NCBI GenBank assembly: GCA_032622095.1
Contig: CP136068.1
Location: forward strand, 59,668,025-59,732,024
Length of the DNA: 64,000 nt
Direction of reading: 5' to 3'
Source: Siphonodentalium dalli
Taxonomy: Eukaryota; Mollusca; Scaphopoda; Gadilida; Siphonodentaliidae
Translations under genes and position numbers: made by a program
Part shown: positions 12,448 through 64,000 of the stretch, piece after piece
Position numbering within the stretch: position 1 is the first letter of the stretch
Layout: the number at the start of each line of letters is the position of its first letter
Notes under the pieces: generated by a model
Database searches by the model: none
What the model was told of the DNA's origin: nothing
The model's input: the letters and a program-made list of their open reading frames with translations, nothing else

Positions 12448-13424
12448 CTAAAAATGTTGGAGTATACACCAGAACATGTTATAGTTTTCGGAAAGACGGC
12501 ATCTATCCCGATCCAAAAAGACAATTATCCTGACTTTGTCGGTAATTAAATTGGTATATTGTAAGATATTAAATTATTGACAAAATTTGAGGTAAATTTA
12601 AGTAGGACGGATAATGGCCGACTAGAAACATTTGGGCGCATAAATTGTTGCTAGAAATGACAGTCAATTATCCGAGAACCTTTAATATGAAAAAATCAGG
12701 CTGACGAGAACGTCCCCAGTCCTTAAGCAGTGTGTTTCTATTTTTAGAAAATTATGCCGCCAGTCGTTATAAGTGCTGAAACACACACTACAGGGACCTT
12801 AAATATGAAAAATTCGGGCCGACTAGAACGTTCCCAGTCGTTAAGGGGTGTGTTTCTGTCTTTAGAAAATTATGTCCCTAGTCGTAATACGTGCTGAAAG
12901 ACACACCACAAGGACCTTAAATATGAAAAATTCAGGCTGACGAGAACGTCCCCAGTCGTTAAACAGTGTGTTTCTATTTTTTAGAAAATTATGTCCCCAG
13001 TCGTAATACGTGCTGAAACACACACTACAAGGAACTTAAATATTAAAATATTCAGGCTGACGAGAACGTCCCTAGTCCTTAAACAGTGTGTTTCTATTTT
13101 TAGAAAATGGTGTCCCCAGTCGTAATCAGTGCTGAAACACACACTGCAAAGTACCTTAAAGAGACACAAACAATATAAACATAAAGTCGACCTCTGAATA
13201 ACACCACGATACATCAAATGCGATCATCAAACTTATTTTGTGGCCTGCCGAGAACCTATGCCATATTTTTAGTCTCTAACCAAAACCAGTTTTTGTTTTA
13301 GATTCATCTTAAAACAGTTATATAAGGGATAGTTAATGGGATGAACAAATGTATATATGAGCTATCTATAGAATTTCAAACTACACCTTTTCTAATTGGT
13401 GGTTGTACCTAATCAGACCACAAA

Positions 13425-16159: not shown

Positions 16160-17916
16160 TATACACCAGACCATGTTATAGTTTCGGAAAGATGGTATCT
16201 ATCGCGATTCAAAAAGACAATTATCCTGACTTTGCCGATAATTAAATTGGTATATTGTAAGATATTAAATTATTGACAAAATTTGAGGTAAATTTAAGTA
16301 GGACGGATAATGGTGCTCCAAGCCGAACAGAAATATTTGGGCGCATAAATTGTTGCCAGAAATGACAGTCAATTATCCAAGAACCTTAAATATGAAAAAT
16401 TCGGGCCGACTATAACGTCCCCATTCGTTAACGTGTGTGTATCTATTTATAGAAAATTATGTCCCCAGTCGTAATAAGTGCTGAAAGACACACTACAATG
16501 ACCTTAAATATGAAAAATTCAGGCTGACGAGAACGTCCCCAATCGTTAAACAGTGTGTTTCTATTTTTAGAAAATGGTGTCCCCAGTCGTAATCAGTGCT
16601 GAAACACACACTGCAAAGTACCTTAAAGGGACACAAACGATATAAACATAAAGTCGACCTCTAAATAACACCACGATACATCAAATGCGATCATCAAACT
16701 TATTTTGTGGCCTGCCGAGAACCTATGCCATATTTTTAGTCTCTAACCAAAACCAGTTTTTGTTTTAGATTCATCTTAAAACAGTTAAATAAGGGGTAGT
16801 TAATGGGATGAACAAATGTATGAGCTATCTATATAATTTCAAACTACACCTTTTCTAATTGGTGGTTGTACCTAATCAGACCTCAAAATAAGGTGCCTGA
16901 CATTTTCAGAATTATGTCTCCAGAGGGTGAATTTAGTTTGCTACCCCGCATATCTGGCTACTGGCTAGCCTCACTAAATTCACCCTATAGGTGCCTCATT
17001 CTGATTATAGTGTTCCAATGTATGAATAGAATGAGGTCGCCAGAGGATGAAGTTCGTGATGCTATTAGCTGGCTAGCCTCACTAAATTCAGCCTCTGGGG
17101 ACCTCATTCTGATTATAGTGTCCAATGGCTGAATGAGGTCCCCAGAAGGTGAGTTTCGTGGGACTAGCCCACTATGTGAGATAGCATCAGTAAATTCAAC
17201 CTCTGGCGACCTCATTCATAGATCAGTGACACATTATCTTCATAAGTAAGTCATGTAATCAACATATGATTACATATAACCTACGCATTTACCATACTAC
17301 ACATATATTGGTAAACTATATAGCCTTAAAACGGATTTAAATTCGCGCAGTATTTCAATTCGCGCACCAAGGGGATGCACGAATCTAGTACTGCGTCAAT
17401 TTAAATACGAGTAAGGTATACCAAATGAGCACATGACTTAATTATAATTGTCTCGCTTGAGCATTTTAATTATGAAATTATACATCAAAAGCATTAAATA
17501 ACAAATTAAATGTACCATTATAAAGATCACACACATCATTAGAATGAGATTCGTCTTGTCAATTTCACTCCGCATGCGATACAAACAAATTGACCTCGAT
17601 AATGCGCGTGTTGTTTGGTCACAGACTGTCATGGAGGAGTGAGCCCAAAACGATGTTTCCTTATCGCTTCGGCGTTTTCTTCTGGCAATGTTCTACAAAC
17701 TATGCATCTATGATATATAGAGTACTTTCACACGGGGAATACATATATATTCGATCAATATGTTGTCAGATTCTGTAATTAATGGCGGTAATTGTCATGT
17801 GGAGGGAGAAAAATAATTGTGGATGGGTGGATGGTGTGGTGCGGTGAAATCTCACCTTCGGGTATGATATTTGAGCCAGACACTCGGCAAGCCACGCTGG
17901 CCTAAAAATGGTGGAA
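16160..17916. repeat. Array unit 3 (type A)
   Basis: 1757 bp with two subrepeats. Type A is marked by GTCTCCAGAGGGTGAA in the first palindrome and GATGAAGTTCGTGATGCTAT in the second. Confidence 0.9.
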
Positions 17917-19674
17917 TATACACCAGACCATGTTATAGTTTCGGAAAGATGGTATCTATCGCGATTCAAAAAGACAATTATCCTGACTTTGCCGATAATT
18001 AAATTGGTATATTGTAAGATATTAAATTATTGACAAAATTTGAGGTAAATTTAAGTAGGACGGATAATGGTGCTCCAAGCCGAACAGAAATATTTGGGCG
18101 CATAAATTGTTGCCAGAAATGACAGTCAATTATCCAAGAACCTTAAATATGAAAAATTCGGGCCGACTATAACGTCCCCATTCGTTAACGTGTGTGTATC
18201 TATTTATAGAAAATTATGTCCCCAGTCGTAATAAGTGCTGAAAGACACACTACAATGACCTTAAATATGAAAAATTCAGGCTGACGAGAACGTCCCCAAT
18301 CGTTAAACAGTGTGTTTCTATTTTTAGAAAATGGTGTCCCCAGTCGTAATCAGTGCTGAAACACACACTGCAAAGTACCTTAAAGGGACACAAACGATAT
18401 AAACATAAAGTCGACCTCTAAATAACACCACGATACATCAAATGCGATCATCAAACTTATTTTGTGGCCTGCCGAGAACCTATGCCATATTTTTAGTCTC
18501 TAACCAAAACCAGTTTTTGTTTTAGATTCATCTTAAAACAGTTAAATAAGGGGTAGTTAATGGGATGAACAAATGTATGAGCTATCTATATAATTTCAAA
18601 CTACACCTTTTCTAATTGGTGGTTGTACCTAATCAGACCTCAAAATAAGGTGCCTGACATTTTCAGAATTATGTCCCCAGAGGATGAATTTAGTTTGCTA
18701 CCCCGCATATCTGGCTACTGGCTAGCCTCACTAAATTCACCCTATAGGTGCCTCATTCTGATTATAGTGTTCCAATGTATGAATAGAATGAGGTCGCCAG
18801 AGGATGAATTTCGTGATGCTTTTAGCTGGCTAACCTCACTATATTCAGCCTCTGGGGGACCTCATTCTGATTATAGTGTTCAATGGCTGAATGAGGTCCC
18901 CAGAAGGTGAGTTTCGTGAGACTAGCCCACTATGTGAGATAGCATCAGTAAATTAAACCTCTGGCGACCTCATTCATAGATCAGTGACACATTAACTTCA
19001 TAAGTAAGTCATGTAATCAACATATGATTACATATAACCTACGCATTTACCATACTACACATATATTGGTAAACTATATAGCCTTAAAACGGATTTAAAT
19101 TCGCGCAGTATTTCAATTCGCGCACCAAGGGGATGCACGAATCTAGTACTGCGTCAATTTAAATACGAGTAAGGTATACCAAATGAGCACATGACTTAAT
19201 TATAATTGTCTCGCTTGAGCATTTTAATTATGAAATTATACATCAAAAGCATTAAATAACAAATTAAATGTACCATTATAAAGATCACACACATCATTAG
19301 AATGAGATTCGTCTTGTCAATTTCACTCCGCATGCGATACAAACAAATTGACCTCGATAATGCGCGTGTTGTTTGGTCACAGACTGTCATGGAGGAGTGA
19401 GCCCAAAACGATGTTTCCTTATCGCTTCGGCGTTTTCTTCTGGCAATGTTCTACAAACTATGCATCTATGATATATAGAGTACTTTCACACGGGGAATAC
19501 ATATATATTCGATCAATATGTTGTCAGATTCTGTAATTAATGGCGGTAATTGTCATGTGGAGGGAGAAAAATAATTGTGGATGGGTGGATGGTGTGGTGC
19601 GGTGAAATCTCACCTTCGGGTATGATATTTGAGCCAGACACTCGGCAAGCCACGCTGGCCTAAAAATGGTGGAA
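17917..19674. repeat. Array unit 4 (type B)
   Basis: 1758 bp. Type B is marked by GTCCCCAGAGGATGAA, GATGAATTTCGTGATGCTTT, CTAACCTCACTATATTCAG and a one-base-longer G run (CTGGGGGACC). The rest is practically identical to unit 3. Confidence 0.9.
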
Positions 19675-21431
19675 TATACACCAGACCATGTTATAGTTTC
19701 GGAAAGATGGTATCTATCGCGATTCAAAAAGACAATTATCCTGACTTTGCCGATAATTAAATTGGTATATTGTAAGATATTAAATTATTGACAAAATTTG
19801 AGGTAAATTTAAGTAGGACGGATAATGGTGCTCCAAGCCGAACAGAAATATTTGGGCGCATAAATTGTTGCCAGAAATGACAGTCAATTATCCAAGAACC
19901 TTAAATATGAAAAATTCGGGCCGACTATAACGTCCCCATTCGTTAACGTGTGTGTATCTATTTATAGAAAATTATGTCCCCAGTCGTAATAAGTGCTGAA
20001 AGACACACTACAATGACCTTAAATATGAAAAATTCAGGCTGACGAGAACGTCCCCAATCGTTAAACAGTGTGTTTCTATTTTTAGAAAATGGTGTCCCCA
20101 GTCGTAATCAGTGCTGAAACACACACTGCAAAGTACCTTAAAGGGACACAAACGATATAAACATAAAGTCGACCTCTAAATAACACCACGATACATCAAA
20201 TGCGATCATCAAACTTATTTTGTGGCCTGCCGAGAACCTATGCCATATTTTTAGTCTCTAACCAAAACCAGTTTTTGTTTTAGATTCATCTTAAAACAGT
20301 TAAATAAGGGGTAGTTAATGGGATGAACAAATGTATGAGCTATCTATATAATTTCAAACTACACCTTTTCTAATTGGTGGTTGTACCTAATCAGACCTCA
20401 AAATAAGGTGCCTGACATTTTCAGAATTATGTCTCCAGAGGGTGAATTTAGTTTGCTACCCCGCATATCTGGCTACTGGCTAGCCTCACTAAATTCACCC
20501 TATAGGTGCCTCATTCTGATTATAGTGTTCCAATGTATGAATAGAATGAGGTCGCCAGAGGATGAAGTTCGTGATGCTATTAGCTGGCTAGCCTCACTAA
20601 ATTCAGCCTCTGGGGACCTCATTCTGATTATAGTGTCCAATGGCTGAATGAGGTCCCCAGAAGGTGAGTTTCGTGGGACTAGCCCACTATGTGAGATAGC
20701 ATCAGTAAATTCAACCTCTGGCGACCTCATTCATAGATCAGTGACACATTATCTTCATAAGTAAGTCATGTAATCAACATATGATTACATATAACCTACG
20801 CATTTACCATACTACACATATATTGGTAAACTATATAGCCTTAAAACGGATTTAAATTCGCGCAGTATTTCAATTCGCGCACCAAGGGGATGCACGAATC
20901 TAGTACTGCGTCAATTTAAATACGAGTAAGGTATACCAAATGAGCACATGACTTAATTATAATTGTCTCGCTTGAGCATTTTAATTATGAAATTATACAT
21001 CAAAAGCATTAAATAACAAATTAAATGTACCATTATAAAGATCACACACATCATTAGAATGAGATTCGTCTTGTCAATTTCACTCCGCATGCGATACAAA
21101 CAAATTGACCTCGATAATGCGCGTGTTGTTTGGTCACAGACTGTCATGGAGGAGTGAGCCCAAAACGATGTTTCCTTATCGCTTCGGCGTTTTCTTCTGG
21201 CAATGTTCTACAAACTATGCATCTATGATATATAGAGTACTTTCACACGGGGAATACATATATATTCGATCAATATGTTGTCAGATTCTGTAATTAATGG
21301 CGGTAATTGTCATGTGGAGGGAGAAAAATAATTGTGGATGGGTGGATGGTGTGGTGCGGTGAAATCTCACCTTCGGGTATGATATTTGAGCCAGACACTC
21401 GGCAAGCCACGCTGGCCTAAAAATGGTGGAA
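19675..21431. repeat. Array unit 5 (type A)
   Basis: 1757 bp, matching unit 3 wherever compared, including all type A markers. Confidence 0.9.
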
Positions 21432-23189
21432 TATACACCAGACCATGTTATAGTTTCGGAAAGATGGTATCTATCGCGATTCAAAAAGACAATTATCCTG
21501 ACTTTGCCGATAATTAAATTGGTATATTGTAAGATATTAAATTATTGACAAAATTTGAGGTAAATTTAAGTAGGACGGATAATGGTGCTCCAAGCCGAAC
21601 AGAAATATTTGGGCGCATAAATTGTTGCCAGAAATGACAGTCAATTATCCAAGAACCTTAAATATGAAAAATTCGGGCCGACTATAACGTCCCCATTCGT
21701 TAACGTGTGTGTATCTATTTATAGAAAATTATGTCCCCAGTCGTAATAAGTGCTGAAAGACACACTACAATGACCTTAAATATGAAAAATTCAGGCTGAC
21801 GAGAACGTCCCCAATCGTTAAACAGTGTGTTTCTATTTTTAGAAAATGGTGTCCCCAGTCGTAATCAGTGCTGAAACACACACTGCAAAGTACCTTAAAG
21901 GGACACAAACGATATAAACATAAAGTCGACCTCTAAATAACACCACGATACATCAAATGCGATCATCAAACTTATTTTGTGGCCTGCCGAGAACCTATGC
22001 CATATTTTTAGTCTCTAACCAAAACCAGTTTTTGTTTTAGATTCATCTTAAAACAGTTAAATAAGGGGTAGTTAATGGGATGAACAAATGTATGAGCTAT
22101 CTATATAATTTCAAACTACACCTTTTCTAATTGGTGGTTGTACCTAATCAGACCTCAAAATAAGGTGCCTGACATTTTCAGAATTATGTCCCCAGAGGAT
22201 GAATTTAGTTTGCTACCCCGCATATCTGGCTACTGGCTAGCCTCACTAAATTCACCCTATAGGTGCCTCATTCTGATTATAGTGTTCCAATGTATGAATA
22301 GAATGAGGTCGCCAGAGGATGAATTTCGTGATGCTTTTAGCTGGCTAACCTCACTATATTCAGCCTCTGGGGGACCTCATTCTGATTATAGTGTTCAATG
22401 GCTGAATGAGGTCCCCAGAAGGTGAGTTTCGTGAGACTAGCCCACTATGTGAGATAGCATCAGTAAATTAAACCTCTGGCGACCTCATTCATAGATCAGT
22501 GACACATTAACTTCATAAGTAAGTCATGTAATCAACATATGATTACATATAACCTACGCATTTACCATACTACACATATATTGGTAAACTATATAGCCTT
22601 AAAACGGATTTAAATTCGCGCAGTATTTCAATTCGCGCACCAAGGGGATGCACGAATCTAGTACTGCGTCAATTTAAATACGAGTAAGGTATACCAAATG
22701 AGCACATGACTTAATTATAATTGTCTCGCTTGAGCATTTTAATTATGAAATTATACATCAAAAGCATTAAATAACAAATTAAATGTACCATTATAAAGAT
22801 CACACACATCATTAGAATGAGATTCGTCTTGTCAATTTCACTCCGCATGCGATACAAACAAATTGACCTCGATAATGCGCGTGTTGTTTGGTCACAGACT
22901 GTCATGGAGGAGTGAGCCCAAAACGATGTTTCCTTATCGCTTCGGCGTTTTCTTCTGGCAATGTTCTACAAACTATGCATCTATGATATATAGAGTACTT
23001 TCACACGGGGAATACATATATATTCGATCAATATGTTGTCAGATTCTGTAATTAATGGCGGTAATTGTCATGTGGAGGGAGAAAAATAATTGTGGATGGG
23101 TGGATGGTGTGGTGCGGTGAAATCTCACCTTCGGGTATGATATTTGAGCCAGACACTCGGCAAGCCACGCTGGCCTAAAAATGGTGGAA
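21432..23189. repeat. Array unit 6 (type B)
   Basis: 1758 bp, matching unit 4, including the extra G and the type B palindrome markers. Confidence 0.9.
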
Positions 23190-24934
23190 TATACACCAGA
23201 CCATGTTATAGTTTCGGAAAGATGGTATCTATCGCGATTCAAAAAGACAATTATCCTGACTTTGCCGATAATTAAATTGGTATATTGTAAGATATTAAAT
23301 TATTGACAAAATTTGAGGTAAATTTAAGTAGGACGGATAATGGTGCTCCAAGCCGAACAGAAATATTTGGGCGCATAAATTGTTGCCAGAAATGACAGTC
23401 AATTATCCAAGAACCTTAAATATGAAAAATTCGGGCCGACTATAACGTCCCCATTCGTTAACGTGTGTGTATCTATTTATAGAAAATTATGTCCCCAGTC
23501 GTAATAAGTGCTGAAAGACACACTACAATGACCTTAAATATGAAAAATTCAGGCTGACGAGAACGTCCCCAATCGTTAAACAGTGTGTTTCTATTTTTAG
23601 AAAATGGTGTCCCCAGTCGTAATCAGTGCTGAAACACACACTGCAAAGTACCTTAAAGGGACACAAACGATATAAACATAAAGTCGACCTCTAAATAACA
23701 CCACGATACATCAAATGCGATCATCAAACTTATTTTGTGGCCTGCCGAGAACCTATGCCATATTTTTAGTCTCTAACCAAAACCAGTTTTTGTTTTAGAT
23801 TCATCTTAAAACAGTTAAATAAGGGGTAGTTAATGGGATGAACAAATGTATGAGCTATCTATATAATTTCAAACTACACCTTTTCTAATTGGTGGTTGTA
23901 CCTAATCAGACCTCAAAATAAGGTGCCTGACATTTTCAGAATTATGTCCCCAGAGGATGAATTTAGTTTGCTACCCCGCATATCTGGCTACTGGCTAGCC
24001 TCACTAAATTCACCCTATAGGTGCCTCATTCTGATTATAGTGTTCCAATGTATGAATAGAATGAGGTCGCCAGAGGATGAATTTCGTGATGCTTTTAGCT
24101 GGCTAACCTCACTATATTCAGCCTCTGGGGGACCTCATTCTGATTATAGTGTTCAATGGCTGAATGAGGTCCCCAGAAGGTGAGTTTCGTGAGACTAGCC
24201 CACTATGTGAGATAGCATCAGTAAATTAAACCTCTGGCGACCTCATTCATAGATCAGTGACACATTAACTTCATAAGTAAGTCATGTAATCAACATATGA
24301 TTACATATAACCTACGCATTTACCATACTACACATATATTGGTAAATATAGCCTTAAAACGGATTTAAATTCGCGCAGTATTTCAATTCGCGCACCAAGG
24401 GGTGCGCGAATCTAGTACTGCGCCAATTTAAATACGATTAAGGTATACCAAATGAGCACATGACTTAATTATAATTGTCTCGCTTGAGCATTTTATTTAT
24501 GAAATTATACATCAAAAGCATTAAATATCAAATTAAATGTACCATGATAAAGATCACACACATCATTAGAATGAGATTCGTCTTGTCAATTTCACTCCGC
24601 ATGCGATACAAAAAAATTTACCTCGATAATCCACGTGTTGTTTGGTCACAGACTGTCATGGAGGAGTGAGCCCAAACCGATGTTTTATTATCGCTTCGGT
24701 GTTTTCTTCTGGCAATGTTCTACAAACTATGCATCTATGATATATAGAGTACTTTCCCACGGGGAATACATATATATTCGATCAATATTTTGTCAGATTC
24801 TGTAACTAATGGCGATAATTGTCATGTGGAGGGAGAAAAATAATTGTGGAAGCGTGGCGCGGTGAAATCTCACCTTCGGATTTGATATTTGAGCCAGACA
24901 CTCGGCAAGCCACACTGGCCTAAAAATGGTGGAA
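23190..24934. repeat. Array unit 7 (type B, then diverging)
   Basis: Identical in type to unit 6 through about 24340. It then becomes a more diverged version (GGTAAATATAGCC, an intact GGGGTGCGCGAAT hairpin arm, other substitutions). This marks the edge of the recently homogenised core. Confidence 0.85.
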
Positions 24935-36690: not shown

Positions 36691-37255
36691 ACTGGTGCAG
36701 TACGATTAGCGCCATCTATACGTTATCTCTGTATTTTAATAATAAGAGCTTACTTAATTATCATTTTGAAAGAAGAATATCCAAGATATCACAGAACGAC
36801 AAGGTAAGTAGATAGTTTATTACTAAATATAGACAGAGAAGCAGCACAAAAACATTTTGGCTTATGAGAACAAAATATAATTTAGTGAATTTAATTTGTC
36901 GTAGGCCTACCGTACGTCGTCTGCTAGATCAGGTCGTCTAGACTGATGCTGTAGTACTGGTGCTCGTACTGAAGTAAACTTACACCCTATAAGGTGCAGA
37001 CGTCCCCGCAAGTCGTGGTCGAGATATCACGTCGGTGGTTATCACAGGCCGGCTGATGCAGATGGATTATCGATGCAAGCAGGTCGTTGTGATCTAGGTC
37101 GGCGTGGTGGTATTCTCTCTCTCTCTCTGTTCCTGCGCATGCGCGCTAAGTCAGGAATTCCCCAAAATCTACTACACTCCTCCCCACTTTCTCTTTCCGT
37201 TTCCTTCCACGGTGGAATCTTGGCATCCAAAATAAATGGGGGGTGTTCCCTGTAT
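36691..37255. other. Intergenic; no gene seen
   Basis: Somewhat CpG-richer DNA with a CTCTCT run at 37116-37128 followed by a GCGCATGCGCGC tract. Overlapping opposite-strand frames (62-68 aa) have no motif. Confidence 0.4.
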
Positions 37256-37345
37256 CAAGGTATTTTCTAGAAGGCCATCTTCGGGAGTATCACTTCGTTT
37301 CCTGGAGGATCCATCAAGGTATTCTCTAGAAGGCCATCCTCTATT
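37256..37345. repeat. 59-bp direct repeat
   Basis: 'CAAGGTATT(T/C)TCTAGAAGGCC' at 37256 and again at 37315. Confidence 0.8.
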
Positions 37346-37403
37346 GGTTCTCGTCTCCATTTTCTGCGTTTTTATCAAGTGCGGCTGCGCCCATTACTGT
37401 GTA

Positions 37404-38113
37404 TCCCTTCGATGAAGGGACCTGCTATCAGTGCCAGAGGCTCATTTCTTCTATAACGATAAGCAGGATGCTGGTAACCGCTTCCTTATAGGGATGCCCA
37501 CATAGTACTTTTCAGTCCATGAAGGTTTCCAGACCAAGTCATCAGACAGTGCTTGTCTGTTTCAAGTTTGTGTTTGGACCGAATTATACCTTATACCATC
37601 ACTGATGATATATGTTGACTGGACCCACTGGTTGGACCGTATTGCCTTCCTGGAAGACTATGGTTATGTGTAGTTGTTTACTGTCATTGTATTTATAACA
37701 TGGCGACAGGGTTCCAATGCTGGACCGCTCCCTTCTGTGAAGGACATTATGCCATCACTAATGGTATGTGTTATTAACTGGGCACGCTGGCTGTGCCAGT
37801 ACGCTACTACGACACATTCCCCGAAGGTCATGGCTGTGCATGCCATTAACTTTACGGTTGTATAATTGTAGCACTTCCCTTCTATGGAGGGAATTATACC
37901 ATCACTGATGGTATCGTGGAATGTGATATTGACTTCCACCAATTTTGGACCGATTCCTTCAATGAAGGAAATTAGAGTCACTGCTGACCAGAATGTGTTA
38001 TTAACTGGCACATTGACTGTGTTAAACATGGTAATGCCTTCCTTGAAAGCCATTTACTGTTGTACTGGTACCATAGTAGCACTTCCCTTCTATAAAGGAA
38101 ATTATAGTATCGC
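37404..38113. repeat. Dyad-bearing degenerate repeat downstream of the HhH ORFs
   Basis: Recurring blocks consist of a CCCTTC...GAAGGG-type dyad, ATTATACCATCACTGATGGTAT and TGTGTTATTAACTGG. Dyads: TCCCTTC-GAT-GAAGGGA 37404-37420; CCTTC-TGT-GAAGG 37731-37743; TTCCCT..GAGGGAA 37875-37893; TTCCTTC-AAT-GAAGGAA 37954-37970; TTCCCTTCTATAAAGGAA near 38084. The 129-aa minus-strand frame here mirrors the repeat (SDGI...EG) and is not taken as a protein. Confidence 0.7.
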
Positions 38114-38614
38114 TTATGGTAGCACTCCTCCAGGATCCCAGGGCCATTTGCTGGATTGTCCCCTACTAGTATGTGTTTTGCATCTTTCTGATGACAGCTT
38201 ATCGGGGTTCACATTTGCTTTCATGATCAATCCTTGGTCCTGCTCCTCCACTGGAAAAGATACAGAACTATCTATGGGGGTGCTAGTTCTCATGTATTCA
38301 CTGCAGTGTTCTTCTATCCCACTGGTGTTAGATGAAGCAACGATTGTTAATGAGGCCGGTGTGCAATGTCGGCTGAACAAGTTTTCAGAGGAGATGCTGA
38401 ATGTGGCAGGAGTACTGTCGTTCCTTTCAGTTTCGTCAGATTCAATTTCTTTGACTATTATTCCCGTGCTGTATTGAATTATGGAACTTTCACCAAGGTC
38501 ATTTATGGTCATTTCATCTTTGGAAGTTTCTGTATCACTGGGGTGTACTAGCTTAGCGAAGTGTTCCACTTGGTCCACTGGGAGAGGCAGAATTTCGTCC
38601 CATGTGTATAATTC
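38114..38614 (-). pseudogene. In-frame continuation after TGA of the repeat ORF, unknown function
   Basis: Downstream of the TGA at 38615-38617, the same reading frame stays open for 166 codons to a stop at 38114-38116. The product is acidic and Ser/Thr-rich (SDTETSKDEMTINDLGESS, SSENLFSRHCTPASLTIVAS), with no signal peptide, membrane segment or recognisable domain. Its composition matches the preceding ORF. It is probably the C-terminal part of the same ancestral protein, cut off by one nonsense codon at the position where sister repeats have CAA. It could also be reached by readthrough, or the stop could be a sequencing or allelic difference. It lacks an early ATG of its own. Confidence 0.4.
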
Positions 38615-39457
38615 TCATGAGTTTTCACCAGATGGAGAGATAGAGGTACTTTCTGAACTACCAGTAATCTGTCCTCGTTTCTCATTCGAGCTAGTTTCTG
38701 TGTGGCATGACTGGTTACTGTCAAAGAGATTCTGTTCAACGAAGGTATGACTCATGGTTCCATCTGTGATGGATCCACCGTGAGCCTCGGTTGTGCTCTG
38801 CTCTGAATCTAGGATGTTGCCTCTCACCAATTGGTTTATGATGTCACATGTGGGCATTGAAATGTCATTGCCAAGTAGCTGTCTATGTCTCCGTTCTAAA
38901 TATGCCAGAGTTTTTATTGGGGTTCTACACGGACTGATGGACTCCTTGAAGCATGTATCCCCTATATCGCACTCACTGGATGGCGAGCTGATATGTTGGA
39001 CGATAAGGTCACCACTGGAGCTCTGCTTCAATTGTGAGTTTTCACCGGATGGAGAGATACAGGTACTTTCGGAACTACCCGCAATCTGTCTTTGATTCTC
39101 ATTCGAGCTAGTTCCTGTGTGGCCTGACTGGTTACTGTCAAATAGATTCTGTTCAACGAAGGTAGGACTCAATGTTCCATCTGTGATGGGTCCACTGTGG
39201 CCCTCGGTTGTGCTCTCCTCTAAATCTACACATTTGACTCCCACCAATTGATTTAGGATGTCACATGTGGGCATCGAAATGTCATTGCCAAGTAGCTGTC
39301 TATGTCTCCGTTCTAAATATGTGAGAGTTTTTATTGGGGTTCTACATGGCCTGATGAACTCCTTGAAGCATGTATTTCCTAGATCGCCCTCATTGGATGG
39401 CAAACTATTATTTTGGAACATGAGGTCACCACTGGAACTCTGCCTCAATTCCTTGGA
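38615..39457 (-). CDS. ORF with two 139-aa internal repeats, unknown function
   Basis: An open frame of ~280 codons on the minus strand. The first ATG is at 39421; the frame is open from a TAA just upstream of 39457. It consists of two tandem copies of a 417-bp (139-aa) unit. Each has QSSSGDL, then CRTPIKTL.YLERRHRQLL and GNDISMPTCDI.NQLV, a negatively charged stretch, FVEQNLFDSNQS, and SPSGENS. A third unit seems to begin and is cut by TGA at 38615-38617. It starts in a different phase from the upstream HhH ORF and overlaps its end by a few codons, so either a frameshift joins them or one is broken. The unit-to-unit protein similarity is high, but both copies are recent duplicates at DNA level, so similarity alone does not prove selection. 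No family recognised. Confidence 0.5.
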   Translation of the reverse strand, partial: SKELRQSSSGDLMFQNNSLPSNEGDLGNTCFKEFIRPCRTPIKTLTYLERRHRQLLGNDISMPTCDILNQLVGVKCVDLEESTTEGHSGPITDGTLSPTFVEQNLFDSNQSGHTGTSSNENQRQIAGSSESTCISPSGENSQLKQSSSGDLIVQHISSPSSECDIGDTCFKESISPCRTPIKTLAYLERRHRQLLGNDISMPTCDIINQLVRGNILDSEQSTTEAHGGSITDGTMSHTFVEQNLFDSNQSCHTETSSNEKRGQITGSSESTSISPSGENS

Positions 39458-40431
39458 GTGATCAGCTTATTCGCAGACTTCCCCCTGATTGGTCTTCCTG
39501 GAAGACTTGATTTCAATGGAGTCGCTTTGTGACAAATTGGTCTTGGTGGTGAGTATTCCTGCCCCTCGCCTATGTTATGAGGCGACCTTTGTCTTAGAAA
39601 ATATGTGGAAGCACCATGCCTCTCCACGAGGTGTGTATCCTGGTCACCCCCTGAAAGTGACTGCTTTGGTTCTGTCATCCATCTCTGTTCTGACCTTCTT
39701 GGAAGGTCACTTCTGGGCCCTTGCCCAAAGCTGCATTGAAACCAATCTGGTTGCTGTGTTCTTCGAAATCTTCTTTGAAATTTCTGAAACTGAAAGTCGA
39801 GTTCATCGTTGCTTTGAATTTCCTTAGTCGTGAGTCGACTGTCAGTTTGACCCAGTCCTCCCGTTTTTCCAGGTTGCTCGCTTTCTGAGACAATGAGTCC
39901 AATGCCTCTTCTAGTCTGTCCAGATCGGACTACTCTGAGTAGGAAGTCCCTATCCACATCTGATGACTGACCAAGGGTCCTTTTAGTTGGTGGATCCTGT
40001 CTGAATCCCGGTTTCCCACCTGAGGTGCTATGTCGGCCATTTATGACCCGGGAGATTCTGTCGTCCAACTCGTCTGGAGTCCCGGGCTCTTCGAGCTCTT
40101 CTACTTTAAGAGGTGGCTCCGGAAGCATCGTGATGTTACGGGTATCTTTACACATAGCCCGAGGTGGCTCAGGAAGCATCGTGATGTTACGGGTATCTTC
40201 ACACATAGCTCGATCATCGCACTCCCTATCCTGTCTGCTTTCATATTCAATCGCTTCTAGCAGTCGTTCATTGAATTTGAGAAATGGAACCAATCGAATG
40301 TTCTCTGGTGTAATATTCCCCATTGCGTGTCTATACCAGACAAGTAATGAAGCAGTCTTCTTTCCTATCCCCGGGATGTCCAGTAATGTCTTGTACGAGC
40401 ATTGATTAATTTTTACTTTCGTCGGGTACAT
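39445..40431 (-). CDS. Putative helix-hairpin-helix DNA-binding protein
   Basis: A 328-aa frame from the ATG at 40431; the frame is open 17 codons further upstream, without another ATG. Residues ~8-34 (KINQCSYKTLLDIPGIGKK, then TASLLVWYR) form a helix-hairpin-helix: a helix, the PGIG hairpin at 20-23 with following lysines, and a second helix. HhH motifs of this type usually contact the DNA backbone without sequence preference (family knowledge). The region after it (NITPENIRLVPFLKFNERLLEAIEYES) resembles the second half often seen with ComEA/HhH-type units. Residues ~73-107 are two copies of a 17-aa repeat (AMC.DTRNITMLPEPP), a 51-bp DNA duplication at 40112-40213. The remainder is hydrophilic, rich in Arg, Gln and Ser and probably disordered. 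It ends at a TGA a few codons inside the start of the repeat ORF. It could be part of an unclassified mobile element or a fast-evolving host gene. No catalytic domain is seen. Confidence 0.55.
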   Translation of the reverse strand: MYPTKVKINQCSYKTLLDIPGIGKKTASLLVWYRHAMGNITPENIRLVPFLKFNERLLEAIEYESRQDRECDDRAMCEDTRNITMLPEPPRAMCKDTRNITMLPEPPLKVEELEEPGTPDELDDRISRVINGRHSTSGGKPGFRQDPPTKRTLGQSSDVDRDFLLRVVRSGQTRRGIGLIVSESEQPGKTGGLGQTDSRLTTKEIQSNDELDFQFQKFQRRFRRTQQPDWFQCSFGQGPRSDLPRRSEQRWMTEPKQSLSGGDQDTHLVERHGASTYFLRQRSPHNIGEGQEYSPPRPICHKATPLKSSLPGRPIRGKSANKLITPRN

Positions 40432-40515
40432 GGTTGTGTGTTGAAATATACCGAAAAGTATAACGTTGAATTGCTCCTTCACAAAAGATGCAATATGTGA
40501 AAATGTGTCAAATTT

Positions 40516-40699
40516 CCTTCACTGAATGAAATAATTCACAGCTAATGCCTTTGTTAAAGCAGTTTACGGGCCAAGACTGATCACTTCTTTGAAGTGGTCA
40601 GTATTCTCCTTCACTGAATGAAATAATTCACAGCTAATGCCTTTGTTAAAGCAGTTTACGGGCCAAGACTGATCACTTCTTTGAAGGGGTCAGTATTCT
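40516..40699. repeat. 92-bp tandem duplication upstream of the HhH ORF
   Basis: Copies 40516-40607 and 40608-40699 begin CCTTCACTGAATGAAATAAT. Each contains the dyad CACTTC-TTT-GAAGTG, or GAAGGG in copy 2. They lie about 85 bp upstream of the ORF ATG, where its promoter or 5' UTR would be. Confidence 0.85.
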
Positions 40700-41385
40700 C
40701 CTTCACTGAAGGAACGGGAACAATGTGTCTGGATTTCCTCGCTGAAGAAAATCTCGGTCGGGAGCTGGTGTCGCTTTAATAAAAGCGTTGAGTGGTAGGT
40801 GTCCCTTTAATTTCCGAACAATGACTAATTTCCTTCGCGAAAGGAAATGTGAAATGTGAGTTTAATGAAATATGAATATGATGTATGTGAAAGTGAAGTG
40901 TCACTTTAATGAAATGTAAATGACGTGTGTGAACGTGAAATATGGCTTTAATGAAATATGAATGAACCGACGTATGTGAACGTGAAATATGACTTCAATG
41001 AAATATGAATGAACTGACGTATGTGAACGTGAGATATGACTTTAAGGAAATGTGAATATGTATGTGAGGTGTCCCTTTATGAAATGTAAATGATGTATGT
41101 GAAAGTGAAAAATGACTTGTTATGAAATTATGTGTATGAACATGAAGTCTCACTTTAATGAATTGTGGATGAATTGACGTGTGTCAACTTGAAGTGTGAC
41201 TTTAATGAATTGACAATGACTGCAATTTCCTTCGCAGAAGGAAATCAGTTGTTAGAGCAGGTGAAATGTGGAATGTCACTTTAATGTTGAAGTGCAACTT
41301 TGAGATGACTGTGGAAATGTTGATTGTTATGAAAATGAAACTTCCCTTTAAAGATTACAATGGGTACTGATTTATATCTTCACCG
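40699..41385. repeat. Degenerate ~57-bp minisatellite with CTTC-NNN-GAAG dyads
   Basis: 'GACGTATGTGAACGTGAAAT', then ATGACTTTAATGAAATATGAATG, recurs with variation from ~40855 to 41200. It is punctuated by TCCTTC-ACT-GAAGGA (40699-40713), ATTTCCTT-CGCGA-AAGGAAAT (40828-40848), ATTTCCTTC-GCA-GAAGGAAAT (41225-41245, perfect) and CTTC-ACC-GAAG near 41380. Confidence 0.75.
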
Positions 41386-41507
41386 AAGACAGACAGAAAC
41401 AGATGTTGACTATTCGTTTTTGAGTGTGTTTTATTACGCTACCTAGTGTGGTGTTTCTAGCATTTGGTTTTTTTATATCGCATGGAGTACAGGGCGAATG
41501 TATTCTT

Positions 41508-45197: not shown

Positions 45198-45238
45198 ATC
45201 TTGGTGGCGTTACCATTTCTGACTATGGTTTTCTTGTT
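45198..45238. repeat. 41-bp dispersed identical segment, copy 2
   Basis: Identical to 35312-35352. Downstream it continues differently (CGCTGAACTTCAAGTGAAG). Confidence 0.7.
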
Positions 45239-45479
45239 TACGCTGAACTTCAAGTGAAGTCCAAGGTAACACCTAATAGTCAGCGAGCTATTGTATACAC
45301 ACATGAATATTAATATATTCTAATATAGTTTAAGGCGGGGTCAAGTGCACGTGGTTGCGTGTTGCGGGGCTGTCATACTGTGTGATTGGCATGTTGAGAC
45401 GTGGCATAAGGACCAGTTGGACCACATTTAACATAGAATCATTAATTATATAGCTCGCAAACATATGACTCTGAGAAAT

Positions 45480-46889: not shown

Positions 46890-49800
46890 ACGTGCACCGG
46901 TCTCCCATACGAACAGTTGCACTTCCTGAGTCCCGATGGACGTTGTTAAGATATGATCTCATTCAGACCACCCTACTGAAGAAGTACGGGCGATAATTTC
47001 TGGCATTAACCCTTTATTGTCCTGAGGCGTGGCATTAAACGTTGCACCTCTGGTAGGCCTATGCACAATAGATCGCTGACATACGAAAAGTTGCACTTCC
47101 TGAGTTCCGATGGACGTTGTTAAGATATGATCTCATCCAGACCACATACTGAAGAGGTACGGGCGATAATTTCTGGCATTAACCCTTTATTGTCCTGAGG
47201 CGTAGCATTAAACGTTGAACCTCTGCTATGTACAATAGGTCGCTGACATACGAAAAGTTGCACTTCCTGAGTCCGATGGACATTGTTATGATATGATCTC
47301 ACTCAGACCACCCTACTGAAGAAGTACGGGCGATAATTTCTGGCATTAACCCTTTATTGTCCTGAGGCGTGGCATTAAACGTTGAACCTCTGCTATGTAC
47401 AATAGGTCGCTGACATACGAAAAGTTGCACTTCCTGAGTCCGATGGACATTGTTATGATATGATCTCACTCAGACCACCCTACTGATGAAGTACGGGCGA
47501 TAATTTCTGGCATTAACCCTTTATTGTCCTGATGCGTGGCATTAAACGTTGGCCCTCTGGTATGTACAATAGGTCGCTGACAAACGAAAAGTTGCACTTC
47601 CTGAGTCCCGATGGACGTTGTTAAAATATGATCTCATTCAGACCACCCTACTGAAGAAGTACGAGCGATAATTTCTGGCATTAACCCTTTATTGTCCTGA
47701 GGCGTGGCATTAAACGTTGAACCTCTGCTATGTACAATAGGTCGCTGACATACGAAAAGTTGCACTTCCTGAGTCCCGATGGACATTGTTATGATATGTT
47801 CTCATTCAGACCACCCTATTGAAGAAGTAAGGGCGATAATTTCTGGCATTAACCCTTTATTGTCCTGATGTGTGGCATTAAACGATGAACCTCTGCTATG
47901 TACAATAGGTCGCTGACAAACGAAAAGTTGCACTTCCTGAGTCCCGATGGACGTTGTTAAAATATGATCTCATTCAGACCACCCTACTGAAGAAGTACGA
48001 GCGATAATTTCTGGCATTAACCCTTTATTGTCCTGAGGCGTGGCATTAAACGTTGGACCTCTGGTATGTACAATAGGTCGCTGACATATGAAAAGTTGCA
48101 CTTCCTGAGTCCCGATGGACATTGTTATGATATGATCTCATTCAGACCACCCTACTGAAGAAGTACGGGCGATAATTTCTGGCATTAACCCTTTATTGTC
48201 CTGAGGCGTGGCATTAAACGTTGAACCTCTGCTATGTACAATAGGTCGCTGACATACGAAAAGTTGCACTTCCTGAGTCCCGATGGACATTGTTATGATA
48301 TGATCTCATTCAGACCACCCTACTGAAGAAGTACGGGCGATAATTTCTGACATTAACCCTTTATTGTCCTGAGGCGTGGCATTAAACGTTGGACCTCTGG
48401 TATGTACAATAGGTCGCTGACATACGAAAAGTTGCACTTCCTGAGTCCCGATGGACGTTGTTATGATATGATCTCATTCAGACCACCCTACTGAAGAAGT
48501 ACGGGCGATAATTTCTGACATTAACCCTTTATTGTCCTGAGGCGTGGCATTAAACGTTGAACCTCTGCTATGTACAATAGGTCGCTGACATACGAAAAGT
48601 TGCACTTCCTGAGTCCCGATGGACATTGTTATGATATGATCTCATTCAGACCACCCTACTGAAGAAGTACGGGCGATAATTTCTGGCATTAACCCTTTAT
48701 TGTCCTGAGGCGTGGCATTAAACGTTGAACCTCTGCTATGTACAATAGGTCGCTGACATACGAAAAGTTGCACTTGCTGAGTCCCGATGGACATTGTTAT
48801 GATTTGATCTCATTCAGACCAACCTACTGAAGAAGTATGGTCGATAATTTCTGGAATTAACCCTTTATTGTCCTGAGGCGTGGCATTAAACGTTGGACCT
48901 CTGGTATGTACAATAGGTCGCTGACATACGAAAACTTGCACTTCCTGAGTCCCGATGGACGTTGTTAAGCTATGATCTCATTCAGACCACCCTACTGAAG
49001 AAGTACGGGCGATAATTTCTGGCATTAACCCTTTATTGTCCTGAGGCGTGGCATTAAACGTTGAACCTCTGCTATGTACAATAGGTCGCTGACATACGAA
49101 AAGTTGCACTTCCTGAGTCCGATGGACATTGTTATGATATGATCTCATTCAGACCACCCTACTGAAGAAGTACGGGCGATAATTTCTGGCATTAACCCTT
49201 TATTGTCCTGATGCGTGTCATTAAACGTTGGCCCTCTGGTATGTACAATAGGTCGCTGACATACGAAAAGTTTCACTTCCTGAGTCCCGATGGACGTTGT
49301 TAAGATATGATCTCATTCAAACCACCCTACTGAAGAAGTACGGGCGATAATTTCTGGCATTAACCCTTTATTGTCCTGAGGCGTGGCATTAAACGTTGAA
49401 CCTCTGCTATGTACAATAGGTCGCTGACATACGAAAAGTTGCACTTCCTGAGTCCGATGGACATTGTTATGATATGATCTCACTCAGACCACCCTACTGA
49501 AGAAGTACGGGCGATAATTTCTGGCATTAACCCTTTATTGTCCTGATGCGTGGCATTAAACGTTGGCCCTCTGGTATGTACAATAGGTCGCTGACATACG
49601 AAAAGTTTCACTTCCTGAGTCCCGATGGACGTTGTTAAGATATGATCTCATTCAAACCACCCTACTGAAGAAGTACGGGCGATAATTTCTGGCATTAACC
49701 CTTTATTGTCCTGAGGCGTGGCATTAAACGTTGAACCTCTGCTATGTACAATAGGTCGCTGACATACGAAAAGTTGCACTTCCTGAGTCCCGATGGACAT

Positions 49801-51016
49801 TGTTATGATATGATCTCATTCAGACCACCCTATTGAAGAAGTAAGGGCGATAATTTCTGGCATTAACCCTTTATTGTCCTGATGTGTGGCATTAAACGAC
49901 GAACCTCTGCTATGTACAATAGGTCGCTGACAAACGAAAAGTTGCACTTCCTGAGTCCCGATGGACGTTGTTATAATATGATCTCATTCAGACCACCCTA
50001 CTGAAGAAGTACGAGCGATAATTTCTGGCATTAACCCTTTATTGTCCTGAGGCGTGGCATTAAACGTTGGACCTCTGGTATGTACAATAGGTCGCTGACA
50101 TACGAAAAGTTGCACTTCCTGAGTCCCGATGGACATTGTTATGATATGATCTCATTCAGACCACCCTACTGAAGAAGTACGGGCGATAATTTCTGGCATT
50201 AACCCTTTATTGTCCTGAGGCGTGGCATTAAACGTTGAACCTCTGCTATGTACAATATGTCGCTGACATACGAAAAGTTGCACTTCCTGAGTCCCGATGG
50301 ACATTGTTATGATTTGATCTCATTCAGACCAACCTACTGAAGAAGTATGGTCGATAATTTCTGGAATTAACCCTTTATTGTCCTGAGGCGTGGCATTAAA
50401 CGTTGGACCTCTGGTATGTACAATAGGTCGCTGACATACGAAAAGTTGCACTTCCTGAGTCCCGATGGACGTTGTTAAGCTATGATCTCATTCAGACCAC
50501 CCTACTGAAGAAGTACGAGCGATAATTTCTGACATTGACCATTTATTGTCCGGAGGCGTGGCATTAAACGTTGGACCTCTGGTATGTACAATAGGTCGCT
50601 GACATACAAAAAGTTGCACTTCCTGAGTTCCGATGGACGTTGTTAAGATATGATGTCATCCAGACCACTTACTGAAGAGGCACGGGCGATAATTTCTGGC
50701 ATTAACCCTTTATTGTCCTGAGGCGTGGCATTAAACGTTGAACCTCTGCTATGTACAATAGGTCGCTGACATACGAAAAGTTGCACTTCCTGAGTCCCGA
50801 TGGACATTGTTATGATATGATCTCATTCAGACCACCCTACTGAAGAAGTACGGGCGATAATTTCTGGCATTAACCATTTATTGTCCGGAGGCGTGGCATT
50901 AAACGTTGAACCTCTGCTATGTACAATAGGTCGCTGAGATACAAAAAGTTGCACTTCCTGAGTCCAGATGGACATTGTTATGATTTGATCTCATTCAGAC
51001 CACCCTACTGAAGAAT
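46890..51016 (+). repeat. ~168-bp satellite array 1 (about 24 monomers)
   Basis: The monomer of 167-168 bp is marked by GGTCGCTGACATACGAAAAG, TTGCACTTCCTGAGTCCCG, GACCACCCTACTGAAG, GATAATTTCTGGCATTAACC and GGCGTGGCATTAAACGTTG. The anchor CGCTGAC recurs at 47241, 47408, 47575, 47743, 47911, 48079 and so on. Rare variants reveal longer periods: GATTTGATCTC with AAGTATGGTC at 48801 and 50311 (1510 bp, nine monomers), and GAAGTAAGGGC with GATGTGTGGC at 47821 and 49835 (2014 bp, twelve monomers). Monomers at both edges are more diverged. The length is near a nucleosome repeat, as in many centromeric or heterochromatic satellites; no such role is shown. Confidence 0.95.
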
Positions 51017-61029: not shown

Positions 61030-64000
61030 CGGTACTTCGTCTTTTGGTTGAATGATATAATATCATAGGAAAGTTCAGCGGGACACGGGAAGTACAACTT
61101 TACATGCAGGCGGCCAATTGTACACATCAGAGGTCCCTTGTGCAATGCCACGGTTAAGATAAAGAAGGGGTCAATGCCAGAAATTACCGACCGTACATCA
61201 TTTGGGTGACTCATGAAATATTAACACAACAGCGTTCATCGGGAAACGGAAAGCACCAGTACTGTCAAGATAAATAAGGGGTTAATGCCAGAATTTACCG
61301 ACCGATCAATGTGATCCAAACTAATTAATATAACATTGTTCATCGGGACACGGTAACTGCAACTTTTCGTATGTCAGCGACCTATTGTACACACCAGAGT
61401 TCCCATGTTTAATGCCACGCTTCGGGACAAGAAGGGGTTAATGCCAGAAATTTTCGACCGTACTTCATCTGTATGGTGGCCCAAACGAGATAATATCATA
61501 ACAACGTCCGTCGGGACTCGGGAAGTGCAACTTTTCGTATGTCAGCGACCTATTGTAGGCACCAGAGTTCCCTGTTTAATGCCACGCTTCGGGACAAGAA
61601 GGGGTTAATTCCAGAAATTATCGACCATACTTCTTCAGTAGTGTGGTCTGAATGAGATCATATCATAACAACGTCCATCGGGACTCGGGAAGTGCAACTT
61701 TTCGTATGTCAGCGACCTATTGTACACACCAGAGTTCCCATGTTTAATGCCACGCTTCAGGACAAGAAGGGGTTAATGCCATAAATTTTCGACCGTACTT
61801 CATCAGTATGGTGGCCCAAACGAGATAATATCATAACAACGTCCGTCGGGACTCGGGAAGTGCAACTTTTCGTATGTCAGCGACCTATTGTACACATCAG
61901 AAGTTCCTTGTTTAGTTCCACGTTCAGACAAAGAAGGGGTTAATGCCAGAAATTATCGACCGTACTTCATCAGTAGGGTGACCCAAACGAGATAATATCA
62001 TAACAACGTCCATCGGGACTCGGGAAGTGCAACATTTCGTATGTCAGCGACCTAATGTACACACCAGAGGTCCCATGTTTAATGCCACGCTTCGGGACAA
62101 GAAGGGTTAATTCCAGAAATTATCGACCAAACTTCTTCAGTAGGGTGGTGTGAATGAGATCATATCATAACAACGTCCATCGGGACTCGGGAAGTGCAAC
62201 TTTTCGTATGTCAGCGACCTATTGTACACACCAGAGTTCCCATGTTTAATGCCACGCTTCAGGACAAGAAGGGGTTAATGCCATAAATTTTCGACCGTAC
62301 TTCATCAGTATGGTGGCCCAAACGAGATAATATCATAACAACGTCCGTCGGGACTCGGGAAGTGCAACTTTTCGTATGTCAGCGACCTATTGTACACATC
62401 AGAAGTTCCTTGTTTAGTTCCACGTTCTGACAAAGAAGGGGTTAATGCCAGAAATTATCGACCGTACTTCATCAGTAGGGTGACCCAAACGAGATAATAT
62501 CATAACAACGTCCATCGGGACTCGGGAAGTGCAACATTTCGTATGTCAGCGACCTATTGTACACACCAGAGGTCCCATGTTTAATGCCACGCTTCGGGAC
62601 AAGAAGGGTTAATTCCAGAAATTATCGACCAAACTTCTTCAGTAGGGTGGTGTGAATGAGATCATATCATAACAACGTCCATCGGGACTCGGGAAGTGCA
62701 ACTTTTCGTATGTCAGCGACCTATTGTACACACCAGAGTTCCCATGTTTAATGCCACGCTTCAGGACAAGAAGGGGTTAATGCCATAAATTTTCGACCGT
62801 ACTTCATCAGTATGGTGGCCCAAACGAGATAATATCATAACAACGTCCGTCGGGACTCGGGAAGTGCAACTTTTCGTATGTCAGCGACCTATTGTACACA
62901 TCAGAAGTTCCTTGTTTAGTTCCACGTTCAGACAAAGAAGGGGTTAATGCCAGAAATTATCGACCGTACTTCATCAGTAGGGTGACCCAAACGAGATAAT
63001 ATCATAACAACGTCCATCGGGACTCGGGAAGTGCAACATTTCGTACGTCAGCGACCTATTGTACACACCAGAGGTCCCATGTTTAATGCCACGCTTCGGG
63101 ACAAGAAGGGTTAATTCCAGAAATTATCGAACATACTTCTTCAGTAGGGTGGTGTGAATGAGATCATATCATAACAACGTCCATCGGGACTCGGGAAGTG
63201 CAACTTTTCGTATGTCAGCGACCTATTGTACACACCAGAGGTACCATGTTAATGCCACGCTTCAGGACAAGAAGGGTTAATGCCAGAAATTTTCGACCGT
63301 ACTTCATCAGTATGGTGGCCCAAACGAGATAATATCATAACAACGTCCATCGGGACTCGGGAAGTGCAACTTTTCGTATGTCAGCGACCTGTTGTACACA
63401 TCAGAAGTTCCTTGTTTACTTCCACGTTCAGACAAAGAAGGGGTTAATGCTAGAAATTATCGACCGTACTTTATCAGTATGGTGGCCCAAACGAGATAAT
63501 ATCATAACAACGTCCGTCGGGACTCGGGAAGTGCAACTTTTCGTATGTCAGCGACCTATTGTACACACCAGAGTTCCCATGTTTAATGCCACGCTTCGGG
63601 ACAAGAAGGGGTTAATTCCAGAAATTATCGACCATACTTCTTCAGTAGTGTGGTCTGAATGAGATCATATCATAACAACGTCCATCGGGACTCGGGAAGT
63701 GCAACTTTTCGTATGTCATCGACCTATTGTACACACCAGAGGTACCATGTTAATGCCACGCTTCAGGACAAGAAGGGGTTAATGCCAGAAATTTTCGAGC
63801 GTACTTCATCAGTATGGTGGCCCAAACGAGATAATATCATAACAACGTCCATCGCAACTCGGGAAGTGCAACTTCTCGTATGTCAGCGACCTATTGTACA
63901 CATCAGAAGTTCCTTGTTTAGTTCCACGTTCAGACAAAGAAGGGGTTAATGCCATAAATTATCGACCGTACTTCATCAGTAGGGTGACCCAAACAAGATA
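61030..64000 (-). repeat. ~168-bp satellite array 2, inverted, runs off the window
   Basis: Same monomer as 46890-51016 but on the opposite strand: 'AAGTGCAACTTTTCGTATGT', 'CAGCGACCTATTGTACACA', 'GGTTAATGCCAGAAATTATC' and 'CATCGGGACTCGGGA'. GTCAGCGA at 61373, 61541 and 61708 gives 168 and 167 bp. A marked variant (CCATAAATTTTCGACC) recurs at 61781, 62283 and 62785, a three-monomer period of 502 bp. The first monomers (61030-61370) are more diverged. The array continues past the right end. Confidence 0.95.

Follow-up and report, generated by a model that had tools for sequence, protein, structure and literature searches.

Among the described systems that come closest to the locus reported here, the TR-GAG elements of plants are non-autonomous LTR elements that have gag without pol. 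How the RNAs of non-autonomous LTR elements are chosen by the proteins of other elements seems, to our knowledge, to be little understood in animals. The helix-hairpin-helix (HhH) motif, which is encoded at this locus, as a rule binds DNA without sequence choice. For short inverted sites with a three-base centre, the available part of one study describes STAT92E as working on both 3n and 4n sites, with clusters of sites marking its enhancers (PMC2877871), and the accessible portion of another gives the Roquin stem no sequence preference (PMC6294493). Among the titles listed on helix-hairpin-helix gag LTR elements and on palindromic repeats in LTR elements, mostly in journals free of subscription, none concerned an element such as the one described here. 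Cer1 CERV of C. elegans was considered and dropped; the helix-hairpin-helix named in the available part of the source is in another protein (PMC10309623).

The locus lies in a window of 64 kb (the whole stretch of DNA that was analysed), in which a first-pass annotation had pointed to an HhH open reading frame amid CTTC-N3-GAAG dyads and had allowed for an unclassified element. The dyads do belong to an element, which can now be identified as an LTR retrotransposon family, and the stretch around the dyads is almost certainly one of its dispersed copies. Comparison of these copies showed that 36970-41440, on the minus strand, is a 5'-truncated, frame-broken, non-autonomous LTR retrotransposon, kin to Ty3-type elements with an HhH-starting Gag. 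The HhH frame has at least 134 matches in the genome, at least five of which, the window included, cover the whole frame at 97-100% identity, and the 10-kb stretches around four copies contain one common element. The copy L048 has two direct LTRs of 206 bp that are 100% identical, flanked on both sides by a 4-bp target-site duplication, ATAC (looked for in this copy only), and a clear polypurine tract before the 3' LTR; TGGCGCC, one base past its 5' LTR, is a PBS-like candidate site, to which no tRNA was matched. An LTR lies upstream of the gene in 16 of 30 short loci (L016-L045). The 3' UTR of the element has 46 matches in the genome, 28 of them starting at position 5 or earlier and reaching its end, and 12 of 13 aligned 3' UTR copies reach the polypurine tract, the remaining one (L068) stopping earlier. 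A helentron or satellite reading did not suit the copies, given their LTRs. Rfam at gathering scores gave no match in the window, and no tRNA was found there.

Followed along its minus strand, the window copy starts at a boundary at 41440, past the equivalent of which L046 and L048 continue: L048 has about 400 bp more of 5' UTR and a 5' LTR, all absent from the window copy, and L046 keeps part of that extra 5' UTR. The remaining 5' UTR (40432-41440) holds 92-bp and 47-bp tandem repeats, near-dyads and exact dyads at 40582, 40676, 40699, 41225 and 41377. Two breaks split the reading frame in three: near 39445-39466 the frame changes, and at 38615 it meets a stop. Its first piece (39445-40431), which gives 328 aa from an ATG common to other copies, has the HhH at the start of the Gag-like protein and contains dyads at 39492 and 39691; the second (38615-39466), defined by repeat and ORF analysis, carries two 139-aa repeats (417 bp); and the third, C-terminal piece (38114-38614) follows on without a break from the preceding frame in both L046 and L048, each of which has a single open frame of about 800 aa. 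In the 3' UTR (37200-38113), pattern scans place exact dyads at 37404, 37646, 37731 and 37954, near-dyads with cores starting at 37816, 37879, 38038 and 38087, and CATC-N3-GATG cores at 37597 and 37900. A polypurine tract (37177-37199), recognised from the L048 sequence and the aligned copies, adjoins the 207-bp 3' LTR (36970-37176), which is bounded by TG...CA, is 87% identical to that of L048 and is the only LTR of the copy.

The HhH ORF makes up the first part of a Gag-like protein. Its motif matches Pfam HHH with an E of 7e-5, just under the curated cut-off, and a PDB sequence search with this ORF gave no match at E up to 1. The ORF of L049 combines HHH with a PNMA capsid match above the cut-off (E 2e-7), which is lacking in the window-type frame of L046; this contrast, between the frames L046:3665-6073 and L049:4315-5631, perhaps reflects two sublineages of the window family. 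The more distant L050 and L051, with 33-35% identity in the HhH part, have HHH, PNMA below the cut-off, protease, RT, RNase H and integrase, and since they carry HhH together with a capsid-like match and pol, HhH is a feature of Gag there. A CCHC knuckle is also present in L050, beside which lies a C2H2 zinc-finger array; together with the genome's size, this array led us to treat the host as an animal. Neither the L050 nor the L051 stretch showed the family LTR. No pol domains were detected in element frames of at least 150 aa in L046, L048 and L049, none of which has the protease, RT, RNase H, integrase order of the Ty3 type (Metaviridae), and the window element is accordingly called a non-autonomous relative of this type and, as far as pol goes, not one of its members. 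Immediately outside the L046 copy there is a fragment of RT. The leader of L046 contains a MULE transposase-like frame (L046:7194-7760, minus strand, Pfam E 7.7e-7), the last ~41 residues of which are also encoded in the leaders of L048 and many short loci, so that the element seems to have acquired part of the gene of a DNA transposon.

Each of the seven dyads listed in the first-pass annotation was found in its place, and its count of at least ten inverted repeats with a constant three-base centre over about 4 kb is borne out: a pattern count gave 11 exact CTTC-N3-GAAG in the window, all of them inside 37404-41389 and seven with arms of at least 6 bp, as against a mean of 0.083 and a maximum of 2 in 2000 Markov shuffles of this dyad region. 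The spacing is specific to N3 in the region, where CTTC-Nx-GAAG is absent at N0-N2 and N4-N6. Over the whole window it is absent for x = 0-2, 6 and 8-12, occurs once each at N4 and N5, both outside the dyad region, and occurs 11 times at N7, with 4-bp arms, in a satellite at 61-64 kb, likewise outside it. The sole N4 site is borne by a 31-bp piece (45234-45264) that is 97% identical to the L048 leader. With up to one core mismatch allowed, 24 of 31 window sites fall in the dyad region. When four-base cores with a 3-nt centre were ranked, CTTC (11) was followed by CATC and AAGT (4 each), and this second core, CATC-N3-GATG, has four occurrences in the element and none in the remaining window. 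Elsewhere in the window there are a 168-bp satellite of 24.5 copies (46906-51015), a 167/335-bp array (61330-64000) whose unit looks like the reverse complement of that satellite, and 118-bp repeat pairs every ~1757 bp (16379-23657), which suggest a 1.76-kb tandem array and to which arrays at 12678, 25634 and 27502 are related.

Counted over 2.23 Gb in nine contigs, CTTC-N3-GAAG occurs 54,380 times in the genome, about once per 41 kb, and the reversed pattern 20,334 times. In the comparison with a four-base centre that had been proposed beforehand, N3 does stand far above N4 (15,767, with 17,118 for the reversed N4 control), but most of the excess is due to sites whose loop is TGK or its complement: these number 27,874 of the 54,380, versus 692 for the reversed pattern, and account for ~80% of the N3 excess over the reversed control. 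A non-random background sample, the first 15 sites on contig 1, included 12 copies of one dispersed repeat, which by their likeness form one repeat family, two further sites that are alike and one that stands alone; none of the 15 showed similarity to the element or a base pair beyond the core. Extrapolating from these few sites, we infer that all genomic TGK-loop sites are that dispersed repeat. The dyads of the locus are unlike this background, being dense and having longer arms. On contig 1, at 734723-940741, CTTCTGTGAAG and CTTCTGGGAAG repeat with a regular spacing of several kb, a pattern suggestive of a large tandem array.

At least three CTTC-N3-GAAG are present in all 34 family loci that were fetched (L016-L049, some of which overlap). 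Taken together, 30 of these loci have 107 sites at N3, 19 at N4, one at N6 and none at N0-2 or N5 within 1500 bases upstream of the match, an N3 dyad being present in 29 of the 30; without orienting the loci, the counts are 67 for N3 and 8 for N4. Copies of the family thus show that CWTC-N3-GAWG dyads are one of its features, mostly of its UTRs. That homologous ORFs might be embedded in such dyads holds for these 34 loci but not for more distant relatives: CTTC-N3-GAAG is absent from all 11 loci with distant HhH matches, namely two stretches of 9-10 kb (L050, L051) and nine 5' regions of ~2 kb (L052-L060), in which TTCN3GAA occurs 0-4 times per 2 kb. The idea that L051 shares the dyads was ruled out by this zero count, and its 5' region has no 6-bp stem with a 3-8-nt loop. 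Five-base stems, of the type TCCCT..AGGGA and similar with loops of 3-5 nt, number 6, 9 and 8 in the 5' regions of L051, L052 and L053, versus 1.1-2.1 in shuffles (1.0 in a separate count for L051); for L052 and L053 the numbers take in one or two stems that begin with a purine and have longer loops. These three loci represent one lineage, being 97-99% alike. CCC-N3..9-GGG occurs 8 times in the L051 5' region versus 0.6 in shuffles, an excess that is weakened by those of its gag (9 vs 3.3) and pol (15 vs 5.0) parts. L057 and L059 have 8 stems versus 2.7 and 10 versus 1.9 in shuffles, with other cores than the window's, and in the remaining six distant loci stem counts are near chance.

We lean slightly towards reading the whole as a decayed LTR element with hairpin-studded UTRs, and it is possible, if somewhat short of probable, that the dyads act as RNA hairpins of its transcript. 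Of 24 sites, 17 are paired at the second position beyond the core, where 6.3 are expected by permutation and none of 5000 permutations was as high, with TA in 7, CG in 4, AT in 3 and GC in 3 (types counted by eye); the first outer base pairs in 18 of 24 (11.6 expected) and the third in 14 of 24 (10.2 expected). Several dyads are tandem duplicates, so that the sites are not independent and these counts are inflated. Pairing by all four Watson-Crick types speaks for hairpins rather than for a fixed DNA site, and in CATC-N3-GATG the core itself has changed with its pairing intact. Ten hand-picked hairpins range from -5.6 to -11.4 kcal/mol, with z < -2 in nine. Local folding z in L048 is -2.4 on the sense strand (-1.2 antisense) for the 5' UTR, -1.9 (-0.9) for the coding part and -3.3 (-2.9) for the 3' UTR, the antisense of which folds nearly as well as the sense; in the window, the 3' UTR has -3.5 sense and -2.4 antisense, and the 5' UTR -3.3 sense (20 shuffles). 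By manual count, 13 sites with one core mismatch comprise, on the sense strand, seven G.U, one A.C and five others; in a wider triloop-stem scan of three copies G.U:A.C was 5:4, 5:6 and 3:6, without such a bias. Ordinary sequence also exceeds shuffles: two such stretches of the window contain 21 and 14 stems with 3-8-nt loops (10.4 and 7.4 in shuffles), though few with 3-nt loops, 2 versus 1.9 and 3 versus 0.9.

If they act as RNA, the dyads would form an array of small hairpins with a 3-nt loop and a stem of ~5-9 bp, the top of which would be CUUC/GAAG and the lower part paired yet variable. Such an array could mark the transcript for proteins that the element borrows, for example a Gag that would select the element's RNA. 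A broader proposal, which we regard as doubtful, is that HhH-Gag retrotransposon lineages carry their own UTR hairpin codes separating their RNAs, and that the family without pol retains a code by which the borrowed machinery selects it; the codes would be CWTC-N3-GAWG in the window family and five-base TCCCT-N3..5-AGGGA-like stems in the L051 lineage. If an RNA role were true, this dense and near-uniform hairpin array would give both UTRs a concrete cis signal.

The dyads could instead be functionless, a few old palindromes having been multiplied by tandem duplication and slippage in a fast-evolving non-autonomous element, in which case a striking motif cluster would be explained by an ordinary mobile element. 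We consider this rather unlikely, although many sites are indeed borne by the 92-bp, 47-bp and 417-bp tandem repeats and by related 3' UTR units, and divergence among 13 aligned 3' UTRs is 0.092 in the arms, 0.097 in other columns and 0.113 in the loops, so that the arms evolve like the rest, with no sign of constraint between copies. Comparison of flanks cuts both ways. Strong likeness (score >=16) is found in 7 of 1104 pairs of sites, which are local duplicates, while core and spacing persist in other sites; at a score >=10, a weak excess (2.6% vs 1.2% in the control) extends beyond the clear duplicates. Apart from this weak excess, the flanks do not bear out the self-moving hairpin suggested in the first-pass annotation, and the concentration of near-sites in the dyad region also argues against functionless debris. 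An unlikely alternative is that the dyads are DNA sites (TTCN3GAA) for a host factor of the STAT type, clustered for pathway-driven transcription of the element. TTCN3GAA is indeed enriched, with 21 sites in 4198 bp of the region versus 20 in the other 59.8 kb of the window, and a core that stays constant around a variable loop would be expected of a DNA dimer site as well. However, TTCN4GAA, the 4n site, is not enriched (one in the region, 11 outside), CATC-N3-GATG dyads lack TTC/GAA, the sites are spread over both UTRs and the coding part, and no half-site needs outer bases that pair in four types.

It is very improbable that the dyads are triloop stem-loops of the Roquin decay type, used by the host against the element's RNA: the geometry matches the relaxed definition in the available part of the source (PMC6294493), in which a stem of 6-8 bp carries a 3-nt loop, but sense-strand YRN loops are found in 6 of 24 sites, as by chance, and YRY in 3 of 24, and a protein with no stem preference in that account would leave the fixed core unexplained. 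Binding of the dyads as DNA by the HhH protein itself, which the first-pass annotation had raised in view of the motif in the ORF, seems equally remote; HhH motifs are generally indifferent to sequence, all 11 distant HhH loci are without the dyads, and the motif is part of Gag in both relatives whose domains were tested.

Set beside the known systems, the locus, which we prefer to read as a decayed LTR element with RNA hairpins in its UTRs, resembles each in part. With the Roquin constitutive decay elements (PMC6294493, PMC5603727) the dyads share a triloop hairpin of similar stem length, and they differ, as far as the available portions of these sources go, in having no YRN loop preference, a fixed core and a location in both UTRs. 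The likeness to STAT site clusters lies in the core and the 3-nt spacing; compared with what the available part of the source describes (PMC2877871), the window dyads have paired but variable outer arms and a second core without TTC/GAA. The Ty3-type LTR retrotransposons L050 and L051 are alike in their N-terminal HhH and PNMA-like capsid match, but the window family shows no pol and has the CWTC-N3-GAWG array, and the window sublineage is without a capsid match. This last feature also sets the sublineage apart from the TR-GAG elements, which, by their definition, resemble the family in having LTRs and gag without pol, and from which it is further distinguished by its animal-like host, its HhH Gag and the palindrome arrays of its UTRs.
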